IMG/VR virus record: IMGVR_UViG_3300028654_000065 | Location: 1 to 25,576 of that record | Source: a virus | Length of the DNA stretch: 25,576 bases | Reading direction: 5' to 3' (one strand) | Shown here: positions 4,302 to 25,576 of the stretch, piece by piece | Position numbering within the stretch: the first letter of the stretch is position 1 | How the letters are laid out: the number at the start of each line of letters is the position of its first letter | The notes under the pieces: model-generated | What the model saw: the letters and a program-made list of their open reading frames with translations, nothing else | The model's database searches: none | Told to the model about the DNA's origin: nothing | Position numbers and translations under genes: made by a program

Positions 4302-4453
4302 ATTGCATGCACGTTAGAGTTTTAGGATATTCATTCGGGGTTTTTGCGGTCCTTCGACGGCAAGTCACGTCTGACGGAATCGTCTATCACGTTTGCGATG
4401 ACATCGGTAAATACATTGGTCCAGTCTTAGAAAAATATTGCGAGGTCATTTGA
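4298..4453 (+). CDS. small hypothetical protein
   Basis: A 51-residue protein starting at ATG 4298, which overlaps the preceding stop (ATGA). GAGGAG sits about nine bases upstream. The sequence begins MNCMHVRVLGYSFGVFAVL and ends KYCEVI. It has three cysteines, none in a clear zinc arrangement, and a possible short hydrophobic beta strand. Its own stop overlaps the ATG of the glycosyltransferase (TGATG), so it is translated in series with that gene. I recognise no family. Confidence 0.55.
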   Translation: MNCMHVRVLGYSFGVFAVLRRQVTSDGIVYHVCDDIGKYIGPVLEKYCEVI

Positions 4454-5424
4454 TGGCATCCATGATTGACGTTCCGGCGATTCAAGTACCGCCATTCAAA
4501 TACGATATCGCCATGAAAAGCGGAATTAAGAAAGTTCTCATGACGACTTGGGGTGGAATTGGCGATCAGGTTGTGGCCGAGCCTACGCTTCGATATTCGT
4601 TCAAACTCTTCAAAGAATATGAAATCAGTCTTTTGACTTCGTTTCCTGAACTTTTTACGCACTTGCCATTCAAACGCGTTTATCACAAGTCCGAATCTAA
4701 GAATATCAATGAGGACGAATTCATGGTGATCCACACGAACCCTCCGCACAATAATATGGCGCGGGATTTCGTGACTCATCATTTTACTCAGGTCGTAGAT
4801 TTTTGTTCGCTTTGCGCATTTGCTCGCCAACTTCCAATTAGAGACAGAGAAATTTGTTTAGTTGGAGATGAAATGGATCTTTTGAAAAGAGATTACGTAG
4901 TCATTCATCCTGGACGGCATTGGCAATCCAAGACATTTCCAAAAAAATGGTGGGATGAAGTCATTCAAACTATCGTGCAAGCGCATTTTAAAGTCTTGAT
5001 AGTGGGAGCCGATACGCGTGAGGAATGCGGAACCGTGGATGTTGATGCGACACATTGCTTGGATCTGCGAAACAAATTGTCTTTAAAAGAGTCGACTACA
5101 GTTTTAAAAAGAGCAAGGGTTGTTATCACCAATGATTCGTCACCGCTTCATATCGCTGCGGCCGGACCGGCGCACATTCTTTTAATCGCATCTTGTAAAG
5201 AGCCCGATCATTTATTTCATTGGCGGGAAGGTAAATTTGGATGGCGCATGAAAAATTTAGGTCTCGATGGTCTTTGGAATTATCTGGATTCGTGTCCGGC
5301 GCGCACTACTGATTTTCGCATCGATACGATGCCAGAGAAACTTCTCAATGATCTTTTGCCTTCACCGGCGTCCGTAAAGGAGGAAGTCATTAATTGTATT
5401 TATGCGCCTGGATATTTGGAATGA
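4453..5424 (+). CDS. glycosyltransferase family 9 (heptosyltransferase-like)
   Basis: A 323-residue GT-B-fold protein. The ATG at 4453 overlaps the previous stop; a TTG 15 bases upstream is less likely. The N-terminal domain has GGIGDQVVAEP at residues 34-44, the acceptor-side loop of ADP-heptose:LPS heptosyltransferases. The C-terminal domain has VVIHPGRHWQSKTFPKKWW near 149-167 and VVITNDSSPLHIAAAG near 223-238, the nucleotide-sugar binding region, where the family usually has D(S/T)GPxHxAAA. The length fits the family. GT9 enzymes add a sugar, usually a heptose, to lipopolysaccharide core. In a phage it could alter host surface glycans and block superinfection, or modify a phage component. 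It sits directly before the structured noncoding region at 5424-5631. Family confident, acceptor unknown. Confidence 0.82.
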   Translation: MASMIDVPAIQVPPFKYDIAMKSGIKKVLMTTWGGIGDQVVAEPTLRYSFKLFKEYEISLLTSFPELFTHLPFKRVYHKSESKNINEDEFMVIHTNPPHNNMARDFVTHHFTQVVDFCSLCAFARQLPIRDREICLVGDEMDLLKRDYVVIHPGRHWQSKTFPKKWWDEVIQTIVQAHFKVLIVGADTREECGTVDVDATHCLDLRNKLSLKESTTVLKRARVVITNDSSPLHIAAAGPAHILLIASCKEPDHLFHWREGKFGWRMKNLGLDGLWNYLDSCPARTTDFRIDTMPEKLLNDLLPSPASVKEEVINCIYAPGYLE

Positions 5425-5685: not shown

Positions 5686-6732
5686 ATGAAACGTCCGATT
5701 GACGAGGTAAGAGTTCTTGCCGAGCGCCTCGGGCGCCCGCCGACCGTATCTGAGTTAAAGAGATATTTATCTCCCGTTATGCTCAAAGAAATCATTGGCG
5801 AATTTGGCACTTATGACAACCTTGTCGGAGCCCTGAATGAACCAAAACCCGAAAAGATTGAATCGGGCGCGGGAACGAACAAATATCGAAAAATCTGTTC
5901 GCGTAAAGAGCAAATTCAGGGTTTTTTTAGACATGTCTTGGATCTCGATGACCTATTCGATCGCGCCGGGAACCCGGAAATACTTCGCCTAGTTGCCCAG
6001 CCGGACACTCATGTGAAATTCATGTTTGAGCCAGCGGTTAATGCATTCCTCAAGTTTTGCCAATGGTACGAGCCAAACATTCACATGATCATGGGAGACT
6101 TCGCGGATTGTGAAGGTATAGCCCATTGGGAACCCCATAACCTGGCACCACGTCGAATCGTTCCTGAAATGAAAATCGCTCGAGCACTCCTTCGCAAAAC
6201 GGTCGAACACACGCCGACGTGCTCAACGCGAATTTATCTCGAAGGAAATCACGAATATTGGATCCAACTTGCAATGACGAGAATGCCAGAATTTTTCGAT
6301 GAAATTGAGGAGCTCGGGATCGAGATCAATTTAAAGACCCTTTTGGCCCTTGAGAAGTTCGGCTATGAGATGTTTCCGCTCAATCACCTAGTCAAGATCG
6401 GTCGCGCCCATTTCACGCATGGGATTTTCACTCAGCAACACCACGCCAAAAAACACCTGGACGTTTTTAAGGGGAATATTTATTACGGGCATCTCCACGA
6501 TAAGCAATCGCACAACCAGACATCTCTCGACGGAGATATGGAAGCCGCGTCACTCGGTTGCCTTTGTCGATTGGATGCTCAGTTTCTAAAGGGAAAGCCC
6601 AATAATTGGAGCCATAATTTCGGGATTTTCGAGTTCTTTAGGGATGGTCAATACACGTTCTTAAGGCCAGACATTCGCAATGGACGCCTGGCCATCATGG
6701 GTAAGATATTTGATGGGAATCAGGGCTCGTAG
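5686..6732 (+). CDS. calcineurin-like metallophosphoesterase with N-terminal HNH-repeat domain
   Basis: A 348-residue protein holding all five metallophosphoesterase motifs: DTH at 107-109, GDFAD at 137-141, GNHE at 187-190, THG with His245, and GHLH at 268-271. These bind two metals and hydrolyse phosphoester bonds in nucleic acids, nucleotides or proteins. Residues 1-51 (VLAERLGRPPTVSEL, then FGTYDNLVGALN) resemble the homing-endonuclease-associated repeat, a small DNA-binding helical unit, so a DNA substrate is plausible. The ATG at 5686 has only a weak ribosome binding site (ATAAAG). The 3' end overlaps the convergent protease gene by 13 bases. Phages often encode such enzymes near recombination genes (SbcD-like or phosphatase roles), but no SbcC partner is visible here. 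Confidence 0.8.
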   Translation: MKRPIDEVRVLAERLGRPPTVSELKRYLSPVMLKEIIGEFGTYDNLVGALNEPKPEKIESGAGTNKYRKICSRKEQIQGFFRHVLDLDDLFDRAGNPEILRLVAQPDTHVKFMFEPAVNAFLKFCQWYEPNIHMIMGDFADCEGIAHWEPHNLAPRRIVPEMKIARALLRKTVEHTPTCSTRIYLEGNHEYWIQLAMTRMPEFFDEIEELGIEINLKTLLALEKFGYEMFPLNHLVKIGRAHFTHGIFTQQHHAKKHLDVFKGNIYYGHLHDKQSHNQTSLDGDMEAASLGCLCRLDAQFLKGKPNNWSHNFGIFEFFRDGQYTFLRPDIRNGRLAIMGKIFDGNQGS

Positions 6733-7610
6733 TAAAGTGCGTCGGTCGCGATCTGATTGCACCGACGCCCATACCGATCAGATGCTTTCATTGTGATGTA
6801 GCCATCATCGCCCCATGTGGTATTCCATGAATTGCGAATCAGATAAGTCCCGACGCCTTTTGGGAGGCCACCCTTGGAATTGAACACGCAATGACCGTCT
6901 TTGACCGCAGTTTCACAGTCATACCCCTCAATCACGACCATGTGGTTGATTTGGGATCCGGCATTGCAATCATCGAAAACCCCGCTCTCATAATTCATCC
7001 AGTTATCGTCGGCCCCAACATCGACCGCCACTGGCCTATGAAGCTGGCTGATGATGTAGGCGATGTCCTTGAAAGTAGATTTCGGAACCCCGCCATACGA
7101 GCCTCCCAAAATCTTGAATGATGCGGTGTACGCGATTGGCGATTCCTTTACACATTGGCCTGATTGAGCAACGTAAGGACCGTCGGATCCATAGGCCGGT
7201 GCGCCGGCAGGACTCACAAACATTTGGGCCGCGCCGAAGTCGCCACCATCACACGAATATCCTTCGGTATTGCAATTCAGCAGATAATTGAACGAGAGAC
7301 GACCTGGATCTTTTCCGGCCTGAATGAGCGTGCCGCGCAAAGTAGATGTGAGCGAAAAGTCCCAGCACGACCCACATTGTCCTTGGTCCTCAACCGGGCC
7401 CGCTTTTCCTCGGAGCGAAGCGCTCGAAGGCAAGAACACGGGTTGAACCGAAAATTGCGCTCGAGGTGCGGTCTTGATGAATTTCTTGGTTTTCTCGGTG
7501 ATTTTCAGCCCTCTGTGGTGCTTTTCGGAATACTTTTTCTTTTTGTACCCAGCTTCGGCCGCCATCGGAATGATCGCGAGCCCCAATAAAATTGCTATGA
7601 TTTTAGTCAT
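6720..7610 (-). CDS. secreted papain-family (C1) cysteine protease
   Basis: The only gene on the - strand; 296 residues. The start at 7610 is chosen because GGAGGT lies just upstream on that strand; an ATG at 7622 would precede this site. The N-terminus MTKIIAILLGLAIIPMAAEA is a clean Sec signal peptide ending in AEA. The mature part has the full papain site: oxyanion Gln76 and catalytic Cys82 in DQGQCGSCWDFS, the family LNC...SCDGG element near 111-123, His223 in NHMVVIEGYD, and Asn260 in RNSWNTTWGDDGY. The propeptide is short (about 40 residues), unlike the usual near-100-residue inhibitor. It converges on and overlaps the phosphoesterase gene. It is probably a cargo gene acting in the periplasm or outside the cell, such as on prey, host or competitor proteins, or in lysis. 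Confidence 0.9.
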   Translation of the reverse strand: MTKIIAILLGLAIIPMAAEAGYKKKKYSEKHHRGLKITEKTKKFIKTAPRAQFSVQPVFLPSSASLRGKAGPVEDQGQCGSCWDFSLTSTLRGTLIQAGKDPGRLSFNYLLNCNTEGYSCDGGDFGAAQMFVSPAGAPAYGSDGPYVAQSGQCVKESPIAYTASFKILGGSYGGVPKSTFKDIAYIISQLHRPVAVDVGADDNWMNYESGVFDDCNAGSQINHMVVIEGYDCETAVKDGHCVFNSKGGLPKGVGTYLIRNSWNTTWGDDGYITMKASDRYGRRCNQIATDALYYEP

Positions 7611-7667
7611 TGTGACCTCCATTTTTTTTTGATTTCATATTTTAAGTTTCCGTGGAACGATTTTATC

Positions 7668-8677: not shown

Positions 8678-9292
8678 ATGGCTAGAAAAAAACCCCAAGG
8701 AAATGCTCCAGTTCCCGAACCAATCACTCCACACATTTTAACTCGCGAATTGATTGATCAGATATGTCGTCCTTTGCTCATTGGGGTACCTTTCGATTTC
8801 GCAGCATTACTATTCAATATCCACGGAAAAACGGTTCGCTATTGGGTTTTAATGGGGTTTGAGCATCCAGATTCAATTTACGGGGATTTCGTCAATCGAG
8901 TGCGCCAGGCCGTCGCCGAGTATGTGGCCCGGGATCTCAGCGTGATTGAAATGCATTCTCAAGGACGCCCGGCGCAATATGAAATGGAACCCGCAGTCGA
9001 TGGCAACGGCAATGCAATTTACGATAAGAATGGCCAACCAGTCATGCGAGTCGCAAAGGACGGAAACGGATATCCAATCGTAAAGAGCTCGGAGATTAAG
9101 AGCGACTGGCGCGCGGCAAGTTCGCGCTTGTCTATGAGACTCCCAATCTATTTCCGAAGCCGCGAGGACGCCGTTGACCATGATTCTGTGCTGAGCACGG
9201 CCAATATCGACCGCGAAAAGAAACCTGTCGAGGCCATGACTTTCGATCAAAAGATCGTCGAAACGATTAAGAAATTAGAGGAGGAATACTAA
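8678..9292 (+). CDS. probable terminase small subunit
   Basis: A 204-residue protein starting at ATG 8678, three bases after the CsrA-like gene; GCAGGTG gives a partial ribosome binding site. The N-terminal part (LTRELIDQICRPLLIGVPFD, then LLFNIHGKTVRYWVLMG) has a helix-turn-helix pattern like small terminases that recognise the packaging site. The central region (AEYVARDLSVIEMHSQG, then KSSEIKSDWRAASSRLSMRL) matches the helical middle of terS proteins where W..A...L.RR is typical. An insertion with VDGNGNAIYDKNGQPVMRV forms a beta hairpin. The C-terminus is acidic. The next gene but one is the large terminase, which supports the call. The HTH residues are divergent, so this rests on position plus helical pattern. 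Confidence 0.75.
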   Translation: MARKKPQGNAPVPEPITPHILTRELIDQICRPLLIGVPFDFAALLFNIHGKTVRYWVLMGFEHPDSIYGDFVNRVRQAVAEYVARDLSVIEMHSQGRPAQYEMEPAVDGNGNAIYDKNGQPVMRVAKDGNGYPIVKSSEIKSDWRAASSRLSMRLPIYFRSREDAVDHDSVLSTANIDREKKPVEAMTFDQKIVETIKKLEEEY

Positions 9293-9519
9293 TGTACATC
9301 AAAAAACCCCTAAGTCGGCGCCAATTGGACGTCGCAAAGCTCGCGGTTATTGGATGGCGGCGCGAAGAAATCGCCGAAAAGCTATGTGTGAGCCACGCCA
9401 CAGTGAAGTTCCACCTAACGAACATTTACAAGCATTTCGACGTCGATAATCAGGTTGAATTCATGCGACGTTGGCGCGAATGGGTTCCAGAGCTCGGCCC
9501 TATTAGTAGTAGACCCTAG
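9292..9519 (+). CDS. LuxR/GerE-type helix-turn-helix regulator
   Basis: A 75-residue stand-alone HTH domain of the LuxR C-terminal type: PLSRRQLDVAKLAVIGWRRE (scaffold helix), EEIAEKLCVSHATVKFHLTN at residues 25-44 (HTH with the usual V(S/K)xxTVKxHxxNIY), then an IYKHFDVDNQVEF final helix that normally dimerises. No receiver or ligand domain is present, so regulation would be through its amount alone. The ATG overlaps the terS stop (TAATG). Sitting between the terminase subunits at the edge of the virion operon, it is a good candidate for switching late transcription, though direct involvement in packaging-site recognition cannot be excluded. Family confident, targets unknown. Confidence 0.85.
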   Translation: MYIKKPLSRRQLDVAKLAVIGWRREEIAEKLCVSHATVKFHLTNIYKHFDVDNQVEFMRRWREWVPELGPISSRP

Positions 9520-14051: not shown

Positions 14052-14264
14052 ATGGACAAACTTCAATTGCAAAATCAGTTCGGGGAAGTTTCTCTTAACG
14101 ACATTTTGCCGGGCGCTTCGGGTGGACCAGACGGCATGAGCTCTAAAGCCATCACGGCAGTGAAATTGGATGGCCTAGGATCAGGAGCTAATAGCACCAT
14201 TCTTGCGACTGACACCATTTTGCAAGCCTTGGCTAAATTGCAGGCGCAAATCAACGCTCTATAA
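14052..14264 (+). CDS. small head-fibre-like protein
   Basis: A 70-residue protein with a strong GGGAGGG ribosome binding site at 14042-14048. The N-terminus MDKLQLQNQFGEVSLND is followed by a Gly/Pro-rich linker and a C-terminal helix GANSTILATDTILQALAKLQ plus AQINAL. This TDTILxALxKLQxQI pattern recurs in short phage fibre or head-decoration proteins, where the C-terminal helix trimerises. A 53-base gap separates it from the morphogenesis gene, and the next gene starts three bases after its stop. Role as a decoration or small fibre is inferred. Confidence 0.6.
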   Translation: MDKLQLQNQFGEVSLNDILPGASGGPDGMSSKAITAVKLDGLGSGANSTILATDTILQALAKLQAQINAL

Positions 14265-18232: not shown

Positions 18233-18601
18233 TTGGCTCAATTAGACGTCTCAGACTTACTTTTAGATCCGGTTTTCATTGACCCGATTACGCTCATTCA
18301 TCGGACGCCGACGGTAAATTCCTACGGCGAAAACACCTTAATGGAAAACTCGGTCACGACCGTGGGATCAGTCCAGCCCGCGTCGACAAAACAAATCCAG
18401 CGATTGCCGGAGGCATTAAGGCTCGCCGACATCCGATCATTTTTCATCAAGGCAGAAATTAAATCTGACGGAACTTCGGTTTACCCAGACATTATTGTAT
18501 TTCAGGGGAAAAGATTTCAGGTTCAATCAGTTGCGCCATGGCTCAACTATGGATCCGGGTGGAATGAGGGAATCTGTGTCGCGGAGGTTCCGGCGCCATG
18601 A
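18233..18601 (+). CDS. head-tail joining protein (unassigned family)
   Basis: A 122-residue protein starting at TTG 18233, directly after the previous stop. It has a beta-rich layout: DLLLDPVFIDPITLIHRTPT, YPDIIVFQGKRFQVQSVAPW, and NEGICVAEVPAP at the end. A FQGKRFQVQSVAPWL element is similar in style to head-closure or stopper proteins, where a strand with VxGxxYxV recurs. It lies between a neck protein and the terminator-like gene, which favours a stopper role. Its stop overlaps the next ATG (ATGA). The family is not certain. Confidence 0.65.
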   Translation: MAQLDVSDLLLDPVFIDPITLIHRTPTVNSYGENTLMENSVTTVGSVQPASTKQIQRLPEALRLADIRSFFIKAEIKSDGTSVYPDIIVFQGKRFQVQSVAPWLNYGSGWNEGICVAEVPAP

Positions 18602-19197
18602 GCAACGATAGCGCAACTGGCGGATATTTAGTCCCATCGTCAAGCCAAGGGCTTCCCGGCTCGTTGACGCTCACGCAGTTCATTCAAACCGTCCTTGTTG
18701 GCATTACCGGTTTTGACGGCACGCTCGTACGGCCGAAATGGCAAGTCGCGCCTCCAAAGCAACCAGATGTCGGAACCGATTGGCTCGCATTTGGAATCCA
18801 AATGACGGATCCAGATCAATTTGCATATTGGGGAATGGATGAAAGCGCGAGTACGATATTTTTACGCCAAGAGTCGATTGAGATACAGTGCGCATTTTAC
18901 GGGCCGAATTCTCAGGAAAACATTTCCTCCTTTCGTGATGGTTTTCAGATCCAACAAAATCTCGAGGCATTGCGACTCGCTAACATGGGATACTTAAAGT
19001 GCACGAGCGCGATCAGAGGTCCAGATTTAGTCAACGAACGTTGGATCGATCGATATGAAATGAGTATATTTTTAACTAGACAGGTCCAAAGGACTTATCC
19101 CATCCTTTCATTTGTGTCGGCCGGGGGTATGCTTCATACTGTGGTGGATGGCGATGCCGTTCCGCACAGTCAAACTTGGTTAGTAGAGGAGCCATAA
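18598..19197 (+). CDS. neck terminator protein (gp12-like)
   Basis: A 199-residue protein. The segment LTLTQFIQTVLVGITGFDGT followed by LVRPKWQVAPPKQPDVGTDW and LAFGI matches the phage neck terminator (gp12-like) family with its VRPRWQ...PP..P..GTDW hallmark. The middle has IEIQCAFYGPNSQENISSF, and the end SFVSAGGMLHTVVDGDAVP. It would cap the tail tube at the neck of contractile or non-contractile tails. The ATG overlaps the preceding stop. Directly after it comes the cassette of signal-peptide proteins instead of the tail sheath that would normally follow. Confidence 0.8.
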   Translation: MSNDSATGGYLVPSSSQGLPGSLTLTQFIQTVLVGITGFDGTLVRPKWQVAPPKQPDVGTDWLAFGIQMTDPDQFAYWGMDESASTIFLRQESIEIQCAFYGPNSQENISSFRDGFQIQQNLEALRLANMGYLKCTSAIRGPDLVNERWIDRYEMSIFLTRQVQRTYPILSFVSAGGMLHTVVDGDAVPHSQTWLVEEP

Positions 19198-19515
19198 ATG
19201 CGCATAATTCTTTTTCTAATCGGATTTTTATTTAGTTCGACATTATTCGCGGACGCATTTAACCCTCCTCAAACGATCACTGCGACCAATACAAGCACGA
19301 GAGTGCTCGCGATCAACGCCAAGAGAAGTTATCTTTTGATTCAAAATATCGGGACCGTCGGAGTTTATGTAAGCACTCAAACTCAAGTTGGGACCGTCGG
19401 TGTTTATGTCCCGGCCGGCGGCGCGTATGAACCGGTAGCTGCACCCATCAACGAAATTTGGGTCGTCAGCGAAAGTGGGAATAATAACATCGTCGTGATG
19501 CAAGGAACTCCGTAA
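19198..19515 (+). CDS. exported small beta protein, fibre cassette
   Basis: A 105-residue protein with a Sec signal peptide: MRIILFLIGFLFSSTLFADA, with a likely cut after ADA. The mature part is a small beta protein with two near-identical units, GTVGVYVSTQTQV and GTVGVYVPAGG, encoded by 20-base segments (GGGACCGTCGG...) that differ by one base. The pattern 'SYLLIQNIGTVGVYVS' resembles small beta-barrel phage fibre or decoration proteins. The ATG abuts the neck terminator stop and its stop overlaps the next ATG. An exported product inside a virion operon is unusual. Confidence 0.7.
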   Translation: MRIILFLIGFLFSSTLFADAFNPPQTITATNTSTRVLAINAKRSYLLIQNIGTVGVYVSTQTQVGTVGVYVPAGGAYEPVAAPINEIWVVSESGNNNIVVMQGTP

Positions 19516-22500
19516 TGCGTGAATTTTTATTGATTTTCACATTTCTATGCACGTTCACGGCGAACGCCTATATTTCGCCCATTTTCGTGAATGCGAATCA
19601 GATTCAAGGACAAGATGTCTCTAATTCAGTTCCGGTTGACGGAAATGTTTTGGTTTACAACGGCACCACTGATAAATGGGAACCCGGTGCCGGAGGTGGG
19701 GGCGGCGGAGTCACTTCGGTAACCGCATCCGTTCCTATTTTAAGTTCGGGTGGAAGCACGCCAAATATCACGTGCCGAAATGCCAGTGGGTCCCAATCTG
19801 GATGTCTGACTTCGGCGGATTGGACGTCGTTCAATCTCAAGCAACCCCAAGGCAATTACATTACCGATTTGATCGATGATGTCGTGGGAAATGGACCAGG
19901 CGTTGCCGGTACAACGGTCGTTGCCATTCAGGGAACCGCGGTCTCGAGCACGGCGCCGAATGATCAGCAATTTTTGAAATATAATGGCACATCAACACAA
20001 TGGGAACCGACCACTGTTTCAATAGGCTCAGTTTCGTCCGTGGCTTTGGCCGATGGTAGTTCATCGCCAATTTATAGTATCAGCGGAAGTCCAGTAACTT
20101 CGAGCGGGACTCTTACCTTTACGCTTTCGAATCAATCGGCCAATCGTGTCTTTGCGGGTCCGACGAGCGGAGGCGCGGCTCAGCCCACATTTCGATCTCT
20201 AGTTTCGGGCGACATCCCGTCCCTTAGCTATGCGAATCAATCACTTTCAAATTTGACGGGTCCGACTTCAGTAAATCAGGATCTGATTTTTTCAAATGCC
20301 AACCACATCATTCAAACTCCCGATGAATCTGGAAGTGACACGAAAAATTTGTCAGTTAATCCAGGTTCCGCAACGAATGCCAATGGCGGCGCATTAACAT
20401 TTAGAGGCGGAAGTTCCACGGGATCTTCAAGTTTCGCAGGTGGATTGGCCGCGCTTATCGGGGGCGGCACTTCTGGCGGAGCATTGGCTGGAAATGCAAT
20501 CGTTCAAGGCGGGGGCGGTAGCGCTGGATCGAATGGCGGCGATGTCCAAATCATTCCAGGATCTGGTACTACGCCAGGCGTAATAAAATTATTGTCTAAT
20601 GATTCTGCAAAATATGTCGGTTTAGTTGTAGATACTTCGACGACTTCATACTCACTGACATTTCCTTTGGGTCAGGGCGCGGCCAATTCATTCATTAAAA
20701 ATGATGGGTCTGGCAATCTATCTTTTGCCTCGGCTGTGACTTCGGTTGGCGCATCAAGTCCTCTCTCGAGCACCGGCGGTCAGACGCCTTCGATTTCATG
20801 TCAAGCGGCCAGCGGATCTCAGGCAGGATGTCTCTCATCGACAGACTGGTCAACTTTCAATTCTAAACAATCAGCTTTGACATTTGGGTCTATCTCCACG
20901 AGCACGACCGGCGTATCGGTTGGAAGTGGGTCAAATTCGACCGTGGGCCCGAATGTGACTGTCAACGTTCAAACGGCGAGCGGATCGCAACCCGGTCTTT
21001 TATCGACGGCCGATTGGACTACATTTAATGGAAAGCAAAGCGCTCTTACGTTCGGAAATTTGACCGATGCAGGTACTGATGGGATCACGGTCACATCTGG
21101 TACTGGCGCCGTCATCGGATCTGGAACTTCGATAGCCCAACATGTGTCTGATTCGACACACAATGGTTATTTGTCGAGCGCTGATTGGTCGACGTTCAAT
21201 GGAAAGCAAGCGGCTGGAAATTATATCACAGCCACAACGGGAGACGTTTCTTCTAGCGGCCCAGGATCTGCGATTGCCACCTTGGCAAATACAAAAAATA
21301 TGGTCTATGTTGATTTTCTATCTGGTGACGATTCGACCGGAACCGGAAACCTCGTAAATCCATGGAAAACGCTTCAAAAAGCTTGTAATTCGATCAGCCC
21401 AAGCGTCAGCGAACCATATGTGATTCAGGTTTCCGGAGGAAATAACGATTCGGATTCAACGACCATTTCTTGTCCTCCGGATATTAATATTGTGTCGGAT
21501 TATGAAATACAAATTAGTCAGCCCTTCGTTATTACCGGAGGATCAGGAAACGATACGGCGAGTTTTACGAATATTACTTTTGTATCGACTTTCACGTGGG
21601 TAAGAAATGACTCGAGCGAAATTAGTCTAGCGCTTTTTAATTCGGGCGCATTCGGATTGATAGATTTCGAACAACAAGGTGCGGGCGTACCGGCTACCTT
21701 TTTCTTTGGATATGGGGCTCAATTTGCGGCCGCCGGAGGTCTGACAATTCAGGCCGGCGAAGCTATCTTGCAGGGCGCTGGACTCGTCTCTGGAACGTTT
21801 AATTTCAAAGATTCTGGATCGGCATTTTTGTTGATGTCTGGTGGAATCGATTTTTTCAATACGACCATGCAATTATATGGTGGCGTGACGGCCGAATTGG
21901 CAGGTGATATTGCCGACACCGGCTATACGATCGAAGGTACGACGACTGGGAGCGGCACTCCGACGATTTTATCCGATTCAGGTAGTATTCCGGCCGCGAG
22001 CGCGATCACAGGAAATTTTAGTTTCATTCCTACATCCCTAGCCATTCATGAGGGCTATACGCCTGCCAATGCTGGCGATTGGTCGCCCGTACCCGATAAC
22101 GTTGCATCGGCGCTTGATACGCTCGCTGCCAGCACATTTGTCCTCCCAAGTTTGACGGCGGGATCAGTGATCTTTTCGAACGGTTCGACGCTCGCCCAAG
22201 ACAATGCGAATTTCTTTTGGGATAATACGATCAAAAGCCTAGAGATAAATGGCGACATATCAGTGTCGTCCTCGGTGACCGATTCTGGCGCGAGCGGCGG
22301 CATCATGAGTGCGCAATCCAATACCACATTGGCTGGCACTTCATCGAATACGACTATCGGGATCAATGGGGTTGCGGTAGGACTCGTTCAAGCGGGTGCT
22401 GAAAACGATAAAACGATATCTGGAATGAACTTCTCGGTAACTCGTGGTGATATGACAGATCAGGGCATTTTGGACAATATGAGCGGCGCCAATTCTTTGC

Positions 22501-23321
22501 TATTCATCAATTCCGATACGGCCGGTGTCACGAATAACGCATACGGATTTTCGGCCAATACATTTTCGGAAAATGGGACTCTCACGAATCTCTATGATTT
22601 TTACTCTTTGCGCGTTCCTGCAGGTCCTGGAGTCGTCACGAATCACTACGGCGTTTATTTGGAAAATGATTCCACTACCCCGATTCAAAACTGGATGTCA
22701 GGTAAAACCCAGTTTGGAGCAAGTTCATTCTCCGCTCCGTCGAGTACTATCGAAGTACATGGTCCTTTAGGATTCGTTGATTCTGGAAATCAAATTTCAT
22801 TTGTGGCTCCGACTCTATCTGGATCGACGGCATATGTGCTGCCGGGGGCGGACGGATCTAGTGGTGATGTATTGTCGACTGACGGTGCTGGAAATATGTC
22901 ATGGACAAGCGCTCCTGCCCCGTCTGACGTTGCTCACTGGGTTCATTTCACGGTCACTTATTCGGATCTAGCGACGGCCGCGCCAACCAATCAAGTAACT
23001 CTCTACACACTTCCCCTTAAAGGCGTCCTACACGGGGCCATGATTCACGACACCACATCATTCAATGATTCCGGTGGTCCGGCGGTCATGACTCAATATT
23101 CTCTGGCCCTTGGAACTGTCGCGAATCCTGTTATTTTGGTCGATAATGCCGACATTTTTCAAGCTCCGAGTGATACGCTTTCATATTCATCGAACGTAGT
23201 TGATGCTCCGAATTTCGGTGGAACGACGGATGTTGTAATGACGGTGACGAGCGATCAGAATTTGGATACGGCAACACAGGGTCAAGCAGACGTTTGGCTT
23301 TATGTCTCGACGCTTCCTTAG
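19515..23321 (+). CDS. giant exported mosaic fibre protein
   Basis: A 1268-residue protein with a signal peptide MREFLLIFTFLCTFTANAY (cut after ANA). Residues about 20-590 are low-complexity Gly/Ser/Thr beta modules, including four copies of a G-x-L-S-x-x-D-W-x-T-F-N-x-K-Q unit, a motif widespread in phage tail fibres and bacterial surface proteins. Residues about 596-830 begin VYVDFLSGDDSTGTG, then NPWKTLQKACNSI, which matches the entry of pectin-lyase-like right-handed beta-helices. Further linker modules carry NVASALDTLAAST and LSTDGAGNMSWTS. The last 135 residues (from about 1134) look like a separate globular beta domain and probably bind a receptor. Its length and modules fit a trimeric fibre. 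No membrane anchor or autotransporter barrel is seen. Confidence 0.8.
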   Translation: MREFLLIFTFLCTFTANAYISPIFVNANQIQGQDVSNSVPVDGNVLVYNGTTDKWEPGAGGGGGGVTSVTASVPILSSGGSTPNITCRNASGSQSGCLTSADWTSFNLKQPQGNYITDLIDDVVGNGPGVAGTTVVAIQGTAVSSTAPNDQQFLKYNGTSTQWEPTTVSIGSVSSVALADGSSSPIYSISGSPVTSSGTLTFTLSNQSANRVFAGPTSGGAAQPTFRSLVSGDIPSLSYANQSLSNLTGPTSVNQDLIFSNANHIIQTPDESGSDTKNLSVNPGSATNANGGALTFRGGSSTGSSSFAGGLAALIGGGTSGGALAGNAIVQGGGGSAGSNGGDVQIIPGSGTTPGVIKLLSNDSAKYVGLVVDTSTTSYSLTFPLGQGAANSFIKNDGSGNLSFASAVTSVGASSPLSSTGGQTPSISCQAASGSQAGCLSSTDWSTFNSKQSALTFGSISTSTTGVSVGSGSNSTVGPNVTVNVQTASGSQPGLLSTADWTTFNGKQSALTFGNLTDAGTDGITVTSGTGAVIGSGTSIAQHVSDSTHNGYLSSADWSTFNGKQAAGNYITATTGDVSSSGPGSAIATLANTKNMVYVDFLSGDDSTGTGNLVNPWKTLQKACNSISPSVSEPYVIQVSGGNNDSDSTTISCPPDINIVSDYEIQISQPFVITGGSGNDTASFTNITFVSTFTWVRNDSSEISLALFNSGAFGLIDFEQQGAGVPATFFFGYGAQFAAAGGLTIQAGEAILQGAGLVSGTFNFKDSGSAFLLMSGGIDFFNTTMQLYGGVTAELAGDIADTGYTIEGTTTGSGTPTILSDSGSIPAASAITGNFSFIPTSLAIHEGYTPANAGDWSPVPDNVASALDTLAASTFVLPSLTAGSVIFSNGSTLAQDNANFFWDNTIKSLEINGDISVSSSVTDSGASGGIMSAQSNTTLAGTSSNTTIGINGVAVGLVQAGAENDKTISGMNFSVTRGDMTDQGILDNMSGANSLLFINSDTAGVTNNAYGFSANTFSENGTLTNLYDFYSLRVPAGPGVVTNHYGVYLENDSTTPIQNWMSGKTQFGASSFSAPSSTIEVHGPLGFVDSGNQISFVAPTLSGSTAYVLPGADGSSGDVLSTDGAGNMSWTSAPAPSDVAHWVHFTVTYSDLATAAPTNQVTLYTLPLKGVLHGAMIHDTTSFNDSGGPAVMTQYSLALGTVANPVILVDNADIFQAPSDTLSYSSNVVDAPNFGGTTDVVMTVTSDQNLDTATQGQADVWLYVSTLP
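19800..21209 (+). repeat. four copies of the DWxTFNxKQ fibre unit
   Basis: Four 45-base copies encode G-(C/L/Y)-L-(T/S)-S-x-D-W-(T/S)-(S/T)-F-N-x-K-Q at 19800-19844, 20826-20870, 20994-21038 and 21165-21209. Copies 1 and 2 are also preceded by a shared stretch (SGG-x-TP-x-I-x-C-x-ASGSQ), showing duplication of a longer unit of about 40 residues. Spacing is irregular, so these are dispersed protein-domain repeats and not DNA tandem repeats. Confidence 0.85.
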
Positions 23322-23333
23322 AGAGGGATTTTT

Positions 23334-24128
23334 ATGATTAAAAAAATTCTAATTTTCATCGCGACAATTTTTGCCCTGGCCGGCATCGCATACGCTTCCA
23401 ATAAACAAATGACCACGGATCTGGCTGAAATTAGCGATCTAAGGCTTACTAGTCCCGCCGGTCATATCGACATTGTTTCTGATAATGCTGGAGGATTTGG
23501 TTTTTTCACTTGGCCTACAAATGACGGAGTAGCAGGTACGCCATTGGTTACCGACGGCAATGGAAACCTTTCCTTTCAGGCTCCTGTCGCTGCCCGCGTA
23601 TGGGCCGGCCGATTTACGACCAACTCAGCAGCGTTTTGGACTGTAACGAGTACCACATATGCCGATTTCGATCAGACTACTGCGTCAACATTAAATGAAC
23701 AGTACAACCAAGGCTTTGGAACGGTATCCACCATCAGCGGTGGCACTACGATTTTACCGGGTGTTTCTATCACAGCCATTGTAGATGGAACCTTAAGAGT
23801 CGAAGCAATAGTGTCTATCGATTCATCGACCGGAGTTACTGCGAAAATTGCGGCCGGACTTCAATTGATCGAAACAAATAGCGCGACAGTTTTGGCCTAC
23901 GGAAGCGCTGGAATGACCAGTAGTAGCACGGGTGGTCTGGCTGGAAACAATAGTGCAACTATCGTTTTAGTTGGATATTTTCCGGTCACTAACGGTTCGA
24001 CATATAATTTTGTTGTTCAGGGCGGATCATCTGCACAAACACTTGCTATAAAAACTGGTGTCACCGGATTTCCAAGTTCCGGAAATGCACCTGGTTTCTT
24101 AAGTTTTGCAATGGAATATTTATTATAA
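23334..24128 (+). CDS. exported receptor-binding-type fibre protein
   Basis: A 264-residue protein with signal peptide MIKKILIFIATIFALAGIAYA (cut after AYA). Residues about 22-82 are a fibre linker (LRLTSPAGHIDIVSDNAGG, then TPLVTDGNGNLSFQAP) of the same kind as the end of the 1268-residue neighbour (SSGDVLSTDGAGNMSW). Residues from about 86 form one beta-rich globular domain (VWAGRFTTNSAAFWTVTS onward, ending SFAMEYLL). It is thus a short version of the big fibre: signal peptide, linker module and a different C-terminal head. The ATG is preceded by GAGAGGGA. The gene lies 12 bases after the large fibre. Trimer formation and binding are inferred from the layout. Confidence 0.75.
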   Translation: MIKKILIFIATIFALAGIAYASNKQMTTDLAEISDLRLTSPAGHIDIVSDNAGGFGFFTWPTNDGVAGTPLVTDGNGNLSFQAPVAARVWAGRFTTNSAAFWTVTSTTYADFDQTTASTLNEQYNQGFGTVSTISGGTTILPGVSITAIVDGTLRVEAIVSIDSSTGVTAKIAAGLQLIETNSATVLAYGSAGMTSSSTGGLAGNNSATIVLVGYFPVTNGSTYNFVVQGGSSAQTLAIKTGVTGFPSSGNAPGFLSFAMEYLL

Positions 24129-24139
24129 AGGGAGAGAAA

Positions 24140-24316
24140 ATGAAATTTATTTTGTCTACAATGATCGGTTTTTCAGTAATGGCCGCGCCGGTAAAAAAGC
24201 CTTATCCCAAGCCACATTTGGGCGTGGATCCGGTTTGCGCGAATCCTCGGTTTCCGGCCGCTCTTAAAAAGGCCCATCACTGCGACGTGAAACAAGCTAA
24301 GAAAAAAGGAGCCTAA
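24140..24316 (+). CDS. small exported basic peptide
   Basis: A 58-residue product starting at ATG 24140 with GGGAGAG upstream. MKFILSTMIGFSVMAA looks like a short signal peptide. The mature chain APVKKPYPKPHLGVDPVCAN and onward is basic, proline-rich and has two cysteines (Cys33 and Cys48) that could form a disulfide after export. It ends KQAKKKGA. It lies between the fibre genes and the tail sheath, and AAAAGGAG inside its last codons is the ribosome binding site of the sheath gene. Function unknown; small secreted factor or fibre accessory are possibilities. Confidence 0.6.
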   Translation: MKFILSTMIGFSVMAAPVKKPYPKPHLGVDPVCANPRFPAALKKAHHCDVKQAKKKGA

Positions 24317-24318
24317 GA

Positions 24319-25576
24319 ATGTTGCCTGTATCAAGACTCGTAAGAGTTGACGTTAATCTGAGCCCCCAAGCGGCGGCCCAACGAAATTTTGGCGTGCTCT
24401 TGATCATGGGCAATTCGGACGTAATCAACGGCCAAGAACGATATCGGACGTATGGTTCGATCGATGAGGTCGCGACCGATTTTGGTACCGAGGCTCCCGA
24501 GTATGAAGCTGCTTTGCTTTTTTACAGCCAGGTTCCTCAACCGAAAACTTTGATGATCGGCCGTTGGATTCAGGCGAATTCAGCAGGCCTAAATATCGGC
24601 GGAATTCTGACTCCGACTCAGCAAAGTTTGTCGAACTGGACTTCTATCACGAACGGCGGATTTACGATCACCATTGATGGCGGATCCGCTCAGCATTTGA
24701 CCGGCCTTGATTTCTCGAGTGCTCCGACATTGAATGCGGTCGCGTCGATCATCAATACCGATTTGACCGGCGCTACGATTGCCTGGGATGGCGAGAAATT
24801 CACGGTCACAAGTGAATCGACAGGCGCAAGTTCGTCCGTCAGCTATGCGACCGCACCTGGATCCGGTACTGATATTTCGTCAATGTTAAAGTTGACATCG
24901 GTCGCACACGCCGACCTCGTGCCAGGTTATGTCGCCGAAACACCGGTCGCAGCGGTTGCGATTATGGCCGATCTTACGACTCTCTGGTACGGCCTAATGT
25001 TTGCGTCCTCGGTTCAACCAACTGACGATCAAAGCATTGCAGTTTCGGCTTTCATTGAGGCTTTAGATATCAAGCGCATCTACGGCTCGACCATTATCGA
25101 TCCGAGTGTCCTTGATAGTGAGGTCACGGATGATCTCGCAAGCCGCCAAAAAGCTGCAGGCTATTTGCGGTCTTTTTGTCAATATTCGAGCACCGCCGCT
25201 TATGCGATTGCCTCATTTTTTGGCCGTGCATTCTCGGTGGATTTCTCAGGACAAAATACGACCATCAACATGATGTACAAACAAGAGCCTGGTGTGATCG
25301 GTGAGGATTTGCCGACTTCTCAAGCTGATGTTTTGCAAAACAAACGCTGTAACGTATTCGTGGATTACGTTAACGATACCGTGATTTTGCAATATGGAGT
25401 CATGAGTGGTCCTGCATATTTCGATGAAATTTTCGGACTCGATTGGTTGCAAGATGCGGTTCAAAACGCCTGCTACAATTTGCTCTATCAATCTCTAACG
25501 AAAATCCCTCAGACCGATGCGGGCGTGAATCAATTCGTCAATGCGATCAATGGAATATTTGATAGAGCAAATTGTA
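24319..25576 (+). CDS. tail sheath protein (DUF3383 type), 5' part
   Basis: The frame from ATG 24319 stays open to the window edge, giving 419 residues of a longer protein. The start MLPVSRLVRVDVNLSPQAAA with FGVLLIMGNSDVI and the segment AALLFYSQVPQPKTLMIGRW match the DUF3383 family, which encodes contractile-tail sheath proteins in several myophages. Later family-like parts are IMADLTTLWYGLMFAS and KQEPGVIGEDLPTSQADVLQ followed by NKRCNVFV. Residues around 95-180 (GGFTITIDGGSAQHLTGLDF) are a typical inserted domain. A good AAAAGGAG lies nine bases upstream. The call establishes the tail as contractile; the 3' end is outside the window. Confidence 0.85.
   Translation, partial: MLPVSRLVRVDVNLSPQAAAQRNFGVLLIMGNSDVINGQERYRTYGSIDEVATDFGTEAPEYEAALLFYSQVPQPKTLMIGRWIQANSAGLNIGGILTPTQQSLSNWTSITNGGFTITIDGGSAQHLTGLDFSSAPTLNAVASIINTDLTGATIAWDGEKFTVTSESTGASSSVSYATAPGSGTDISSMLKLTSVAHADLVPGYVAETPVAAVAIMADLTTLWYGLMFASSVQPTDDQSIAVSAFIEALDIKRIYGSTIIDPSVLDSEVTDDLASRQKAAGYLRSFCQYSSTAAYAIASFFGRAFSVDFSGQNTTINMMYKQEPGVIGEDLPTSQADVLQNKRCNVFVDYVNDTVILQYGVMSGPAYFDEIFGLDWLQDAVQNACYNLLYQSLTKIPQTDAGVNQFVNAINGIFDRANC

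Follow-up and report, generated by a model that had tools for sequence, protein, structure and literature searches.

Predicted Sec signal peptides on accessory fibre-like proteins in the late operon of a contractile-tailed phage lineage

The assembly of tailed phages is taught as a wholly cytoplasmic process. Head and decoration fibres of tailed phages (e.g. of the phi29 type) have a short conserved stretch at the N-terminus, to which exchangeable coiled-coil and tip domains are joined, an architecture which the lineage described here resembles. To our knowledge, such fibres are folded inside the cytoplasm and are made without a signal peptide (SP), and we know of no tailed phage that sends part of its coat through a membrane before lysis. 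Signal peptides on the fibres of tailed phages were not described in any paper found by a literature search of partial coverage, which is weak evidence of novelty.

Coat proteins of filamentous phages, such as M13 pIII, are virion proteins made as Sec-dependent preproteins, as described in PMC8310372; inoviruses, however, are assembled at the membrane, whereas the present lineage consists of contractile-tailed phages whose core proteins are without signals. PblA and PblB of Streptococcus mitis phage SM1 are also phage-encoded, reach the cell surface, and bind a target, but they get there by holin/lysin permeabilisation, and what they bind is phosphocholine in the wall of a Gram-positive host (PMC2920869). 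In the present lineage, the predicted route is a Sec SP, several fibre families are concerned, and the phages look diderm-infecting; with SPs present on the window proteins, these differ from PblA/PblB-like proteins, which reach the surface by holin/lysin-type release without an SP. The MATs (mosaic adhesive trimers) of Bdellovibrio bacteriovorus combine an SP, phage-fibre-like modules, and varied tips (PMC10769870). MATs are encoded by bacterial genes, however, and have a conserved beta-rich domain of about 130 aa after the SP (the comparison made here covered the tips), whereas the genes of the present lineage lie in phage late operons and have SP-less sisters. No similarity to the solved tip domains was detected, as a phmmer search of the PDB with the largest fibre of the locus (1268 aa) gave no match up to E 1, solved MAT tips included. 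Bdellovibrio phage phi1422 (JQ177062), described in PMC3391216, is a dwarf myovirus whose portal, MuF, and sheath proteins are homologous, and predicted SPs are found on two proteins of its fibre region: gp68 (MKFMIAFIIALFSVTMATA/QI, 614 aa), whose gene comes directly after that of the tail fibre, and gp75 (MKSFAFLFILLFGFLAQA/SF, 170 aa). Both are annotated as hypothetical; they differ from the window fibres in that no sequence homology with these was found and in that they lie after the tail fibre instead of occupying the neck slot.

The window, i.e. the whole stretch of DNA analysed here, is an IMG/VR virus contig of 25.6 kb, and its late operon is that of a contractile-tailed phage of the E217/Magia type. 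The gene order is terminase, portal, MuF, protease/scaffold, cement, capsid, DUF4054, neck, collar, terminator, and sheath; an XM1/E217 cement protein, DUF4054, an E217 gp28-like collar, the terminator, and a DUF3383 sheath were all recognised in their expected order. The sheath is 53% identical to that of Bordetella phage IFTN9. An independent contig, L002, is 99.97% identical to the window region over 10,193 bp and extends past the window into tube, chaperone, and tape-measure genes. Since this contig repeats the region and runs on into tail genes, the four-gene region described below is not an assembly artefact. Feature positions are given in Table 1.

Table 1. Positions of the features in the window; a slash marks the predicted cleavage point.
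Feature	Position	Strand	Remarks
GT9 heptosyltransferase-like protein	4438..5424	+	Pfam 2e-16
Papain-family (C1) cysteine protease	6720..7622	-	Pfam 2e-35; own signal peptide MTKIIAILLGLAIIPMAAEA/GYKK
Small LuxR-type helix-turn-helix protein	9292..9519	+	by eye
Head-fibre-like protein without SP	14052..14264	+	N-terminal motif LQNQFGEVS; family has SP in sister phages
Neck/tail terminator, upstream border of slot	18598..19197	+	Pfam Phage_tail_terminator_9 6e-24; PHROG 1973 1e-45
Small beta protein, 105 aa, predicted exported, slot gene 1	19198..19515	+	relative with own SP in L086 slot, BLAST 3e-5
Predicted SP of 105-aa protein	19198..19257	+	MRIILFLIGFLFSSTLFADA/FN; heuristic; SD GAGGAG upstream
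Modular fibre, 1268 aa	19515..23321	+	repeated LSSTDW shaft modules; PHROG tail protein 2e-5
Predicted SP of 1268-aa fibre	19515..19568	+	MREFLLIFTFLCTFTANA/YI; heuristic; SD AAGGAA
Fibre-tip-like protein, 264 aa	23334..24128	+	DGNGNLSF linker; C-terminal domain differs from 1268-aa fibre
Predicted SP of 264-aa protein	23334..23396	+	MIKKILIFIATIFALAGIAYA/SN; heuristic; SD GAGAGGG
Basic small protein, 58 aa, predicted exported, proline/cysteine-containing	24140..24316	+	weak SP
Probable SP of 58-aa protein	24140..24184	+	MKFILSTMIGFSVMA/AP; below strict threshold
Tail sheath (DUF3383/PHROG), downstream border of slot	24319..25576	+	continues in L002; Pfam 1e-112

Four ORFs occupy the gap between terminator and sheath, each with a plausible Shine-Dalgarno (SD) sequence and a predicted Sec-type SP. 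The initial annotation had placed four such genes between neck and tail sheath, and both the genes and their flanks are borne out, three of the SPs being strong and that of the 58-aa protein weaker. All SP calls in this study are those of one heuristic applied alike. The SPs of the 105-, 1268-, and 264-aa proteins pass it strictly, with a mean hydropathy of the h-region of 2.9-3.3 and an A-x-A site; the 58-aa protein, at 2.04, fails and is borderline. A basic n-region, a hydrophobic core, and an A-x-A site, as expected for Sec export and SPase I, are thus found in three of the four. The 1268-aa fibre may hold a segment resembling a beta-helix, as judged from its sequence, and family-database searches with the 264-aa protein gave no family. 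These two proteins had been described as having the same linker modules and different heads; this holds weakly, in that one linker of about 60 aa is common to both (E 5e-4). The lipobox expected of small superinfection-exclusion lipoproteins is absent from the three large proteins, and no outer-membrane anchor was recognised. Comparison of the 264-aa protein, the head fibre, and the slot family (see below) with solved structures by sequence gave nothing meaningful.

The contigs compared are metagenomic and partly redundant, and identical ones were collapsed. The heuristic was passed by 22 of 50 accessory proteins from two slots, MuF-protease and terminator-sheath, vs 1 of 171 core virion proteins from the window and related phages (Fisher 1.6e-15). 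When the first 60 residues of each window protein were shuffled, 0.9-9% passed. From these two background rates, it follows that three strong SPs in a row in the window are not due to chance. An SD-preceded internal start near the mature N-terminus was found in 0 of 24 SP-bearing genes; therefore, an SP-less form produced by internal initiation was rejected. Mature SP-bearing proteins are poorer in Cys in both families (0.42 vs 2.09 and 1.0 vs 2.1), with a stratified permutation p of 0.0002, a difference which is not established given the relatedness of the proteins and the small number of independent phylogenetic pairs. Such depletion would be as expected for an oxidising compartment, and it is kept as support only. 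Among cultured phages, no annotated SP fibre is present in the virion regions of Magia, A785.1, IFTN9, Mulock, and BgManors32: the heuristic match in Magia lies upstream of the annotated start, and those in A785.1 and Mulock are small ORFs. CP-T1, phage 56, and phiPLPE have no SP fibre, and ZF40 has one lipoprotein only.

A search with the terminator as query gave 35 related loci. In the cultured relatives Magia, Mulock, and A785.1, the sheath directly follows the terminator, and in most uncultivated relatives the slot holds one beta protein of 112-136 aa. This protein is SP-less in L004, L009, L014, L018, L019, L020, L028, L030, L031, L035, and others, and the same domain is preceded by an SP in L005, L006, L007, L008, L034, L037, L082/83/87, and L089, where the SP sits upstream of the N-terminus homologous to that of the SP-less members. 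The closest pair, L034 (with SP) and L030 (without), is 71% identical. When the SP state was mapped on a tree of the terminators of 27 phages, 6 changes were required, at least 3 of them on well-supported branches. The slot of L086 contains an SP protein related to the 105-aa gene of the window. The window therefore carries an expanded version of a slot whose contents were repeatedly fitted with an export signal. AlphaFold gave a good beta-sandwich for the slot protein (pLDDT 86); Foldseek of this model showed weak jelly-roll/discoidin/phage-cement-type matches in the PDB (E 0.009 and above) and only uncharacterised phage proteins in BFVD. SP-less relatives of the slot family also occur in head-tail modules of other phages. 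A beta protein of the slot family that bears an SP was also observed in L045 (5938-6336), within the head-tail region of a 63-kb phage that is otherwise unrelated.

A second accessory gene lies between MuF and protease/scaffold. Its products have a common N-terminal motif, xPSLVLKNQFGEQSNN, followed by one of several exchangeable bodies. Twelve members of this head-fibre family bear an SP (G002, G006, G007, G008, G013, G014, G015, G025, L086, L135, L158, and L216) and eleven do not. In the SP-less members, the glycine of the motif lies 10-13 residues from the Met; in the SP-bearing members, its distance from the predicted cleavage point is 11-12 residues in 11 of 14 cases, and 16, 21, and 21 residues in the rest. 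The cleavage sites used for this comparison are mostly those given by the script, and for G007 an A-x-A-type site four residues upstream of the script's choice was taken. G013 (with SP) and L077 (without) are 62% identical over the whole protein of 227 aa. The SP fibre in the head slot of G014 (834 aa) has the NQFGE motif and, by eye, a shaft of the type seen in the window fibre. The body domain is also found in about 65 other phages with other N-termini, without the motif, and without a credible SP, and it adjoins fibre-type genes in the loci inspected. One body-domain protein (L147) was flagged by the heuristic and judged a false positive, its N-terminus MANRNFMSNKLYQFEAYP not being signal-like. 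The AlphaFold model of the head fibre was too poor for use, with a pLDDT of 44.

Accessory genes of the IMG/VR relatives thus occupy three slots: the head-fibre-like slot between MuF and protease, the terminator-sheath slot, and a slot downstream of the baseplate. Large SP proteins after the baseplate are present in G007 (891 aa), G008 (1215 aa), G011 (1034 and 261 aa), and G012 (838 aa), and further ones in G015 (469 aa or more), G017 (250 aa or more), and G006 (399 aa, internal start). Modules of the 1268-aa window fibre are 57-66% identical to those of the SP fibres of G007 and G008, with weaker similarity to G011 and G017. The C-terminal end of the G012 fibre is a K1-lyase_C domain (2e-15), a module of phage receptor-binding proteins. 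Small SP genes after the baseplate (90-153 aa) were not counted as fibres, and they may be lysis genes. The initial annotation had treated the signals as a feature of the neck-sheath cassette; this specificity is lost, since SPs also occur in the head-fibre slot and the tail-fibre region. Its view that fibre- or decoration-like proteins with export signals are abnormal for tailed-phage virion genes stands. Modules of the 1268-aa protein are common with SP fibres of sister phages. As would be the case for phage head or neck fibres, the genes lie in the late structural operon and have structural homologues in other phages.

That the fibres are predicted to be exported is well supported at the level of sequence, as is the view that the SP was gained or lost several times in at least two protein families with the mature N-terminus kept. 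Since the SP-less homologues start almost exactly at the predicted cut, the SP appears to be a graft onto an existing protein of phage structural type. Homologues in related phages without the hydrophobic N-terminus had been named at the outset as grounds against the idea; they exist, and the finding survives since these forms begin at the cut point. We tentatively favour the explanation that these are accessory phage fibre or decoration proteins with acquired Sec SPs, which would be exported, cleaved, and probably joined to virions after lysis. The proteins would be exported and cleaved in an infected diderm host and would presumably take up their fold in the periplasm; virions built in the cytoplasm would become accessible to the mature fibres at lysis, and the fibres may dock through their conserved N-terminus, for which the motif LxLKNQFGExSNN is a candidate in the head-fibre family. 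The outermost adhesive parts would then be produced in a compartment of their own and be the last to join the particle. A plausible though speculative benefit is that sticky receptor-binding domains are kept out of the cytoplasm, or that folding takes place in the periplasm. Docking itself is suggested by position, motif, and homology: the simplest view of the SP-less sisters, which occupy the same slot of the operon, is that they are virion proteins, and they have the N-terminal motif in common with the SP-bearing forms. Moreover, the virion is within reach of both forms, but a partner outside the cell could be met by an SP-less form only once the cell has lysed; dilution after lysis, on the other hand, counts against docking. 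The broader proposal, held with slightly less assurance, is a virion of two compartments, with the core made in the cytoplasm and the outer fibres sent through Sec and the periplasm to dock after lysis by the mature N-terminus, the route being switched by gain or loss of the SP. Both states may occur in one phage, as in the window, where the head fibre lacks an SP and the neck fibres have it; therefore, a protein can be a fibre without being exported.

The main rival to virion fibres is that the exported proteins stay at the envelope of the infected cell and serve there in adhesion or aggregation, in masking receptors, or in excluding superinfecting phages, with the SP turning a virion-type domain into a surface protein. 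This is a serious possibility, if a less probable one: Sec export is the usual route to such functions, the SPs are found on modular, adhesin-like proteins, PblA/PblB of phage SM1 are a precedent for phage tail proteins on the cell surface (PMC2920869), and the window has other SP-bearing or envelope-type accessory genes (C1 protease, GT9). However, the genes are located within the late structural operon, when the cell is near lysis, and the three large proteins have neither lipobox nor recognised anchor. Members with and without an SP also keep the N-terminal motif and its spacing from the mature end. The graft speaks more for a virion fibre that passes through the periplasm than for a purely host-surface protein, although it does not decide the matter. 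Lysogenic conversion, as one form of the envelope role, is unlikely since no prophage relatives were found in the genomes of 85k species, among which no relative of the terminator is present. Slot homologues in three MAGs are without the SP arrangement, and host assignment through prophages therefore failed.

A narrower form of surface function, which assumes a Bdellovibrio-like predator as host and takes the proteins for MAT relatives exported for the predator-prey interface or the bdelloplast, is unlikely. The fibre-region SP proteins of phi1422 speak for it, since the phiPLPE-group relatives of non-predatory hosts have none save the ZF40 lipoprotein, and MATs are themselves SP-bearing phage-fibre-like proteins (PMC10769870). 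Against it, phi1402, the other Bdellovibrio phage and one unrelated to phi1422, has no SP on its fibres; the genes common to phi1402 and phi1422 (phi1402 gp36/37/39) are absent from the window lineage; the solved MAT tips gave no match; and the best cultured matches of the lineage are mostly betaproteobacterial phages, nearly all from Bordetella, Burkholderia, Acinetobacter, and Klebsiella. A Bdellovibrio host by shared genes was therefore rejected for want of these signature genes, and a Bdellovibrio-like host is a possibility and not a result. The hint at Bdellovibrio in the initial annotation hence gains one independent support from gp68 and gp75, and does not extend to a proven host or to membership of the MAT family. 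It is somewhat less likely still that the hydrophobic N-termini are uncleaved membrane or virion-assembly anchors; cleavage is a prediction from sequence, yet homologues in the same slot do without the segment, most SPs have A-x-A-type sites, and the h-regions end exactly ahead of the homologous N-terminus. Chance hydrophobicity or wrong start choice is very improbable: the upper pass rate of shuffled N-termini and the weak 58-aa protein allow for it, but three strong SPs stand in a row with an SD at each start and no alternative internal start, and the pattern recurs across many phages, the core genes being nearly free of it.

The preferred reading of virion fibres passing through the periplasm bears on a wider question. 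Sister phages that carry the same fibre with and without a cleavable-type SP, in two independent genes, constitute a natural experiment on whether parts of a virion can be made outside the cytoplasm, or on how a phage fibre turns into a surface adhesin. They also indicate a concrete way in which exported adhesins that resemble phage fibres, such as those of Bdellovibrio, could originate. Phage phi1422, with its SP-bearing gp68 and gp75, is a cultured phage in which this may be tested. A relative of gp68 (43%) was observed in L225 (3350-5326), an IMG/VR record that to judge from its identifier is probably an isolate genome; there, a 658-aa SP fibre-like protein follows the tail-fibre genes. The three genes common to the two Bdellovibrio phages (phi1402 gp36/gp37/gp39 and phi1422 gp71/gp72/gp01) were not found in the other phages compared, and they are possibly a host-specific signature, perhaps of lysis.

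Several further features of the window were observed. The C1 protease gene lies on the opposite strand between the early genes and the terminase, and its product is probably an exported phage accessory protein, judging from its signal peptide. The GT9 protein, also encoded by G001 and G002, points to modification of LPS and to a diderm host. No anti-phage defence families were matched. The LuxR-type gene lies between the small and large terminase genes. The sheath varies from about 490 to 711 aa among L005, L018, L037, and other relatives; in many of these, tblastn leaves a mid-gene gap consistent with an inserted domain, which the 491-aa sheath of the window does without.
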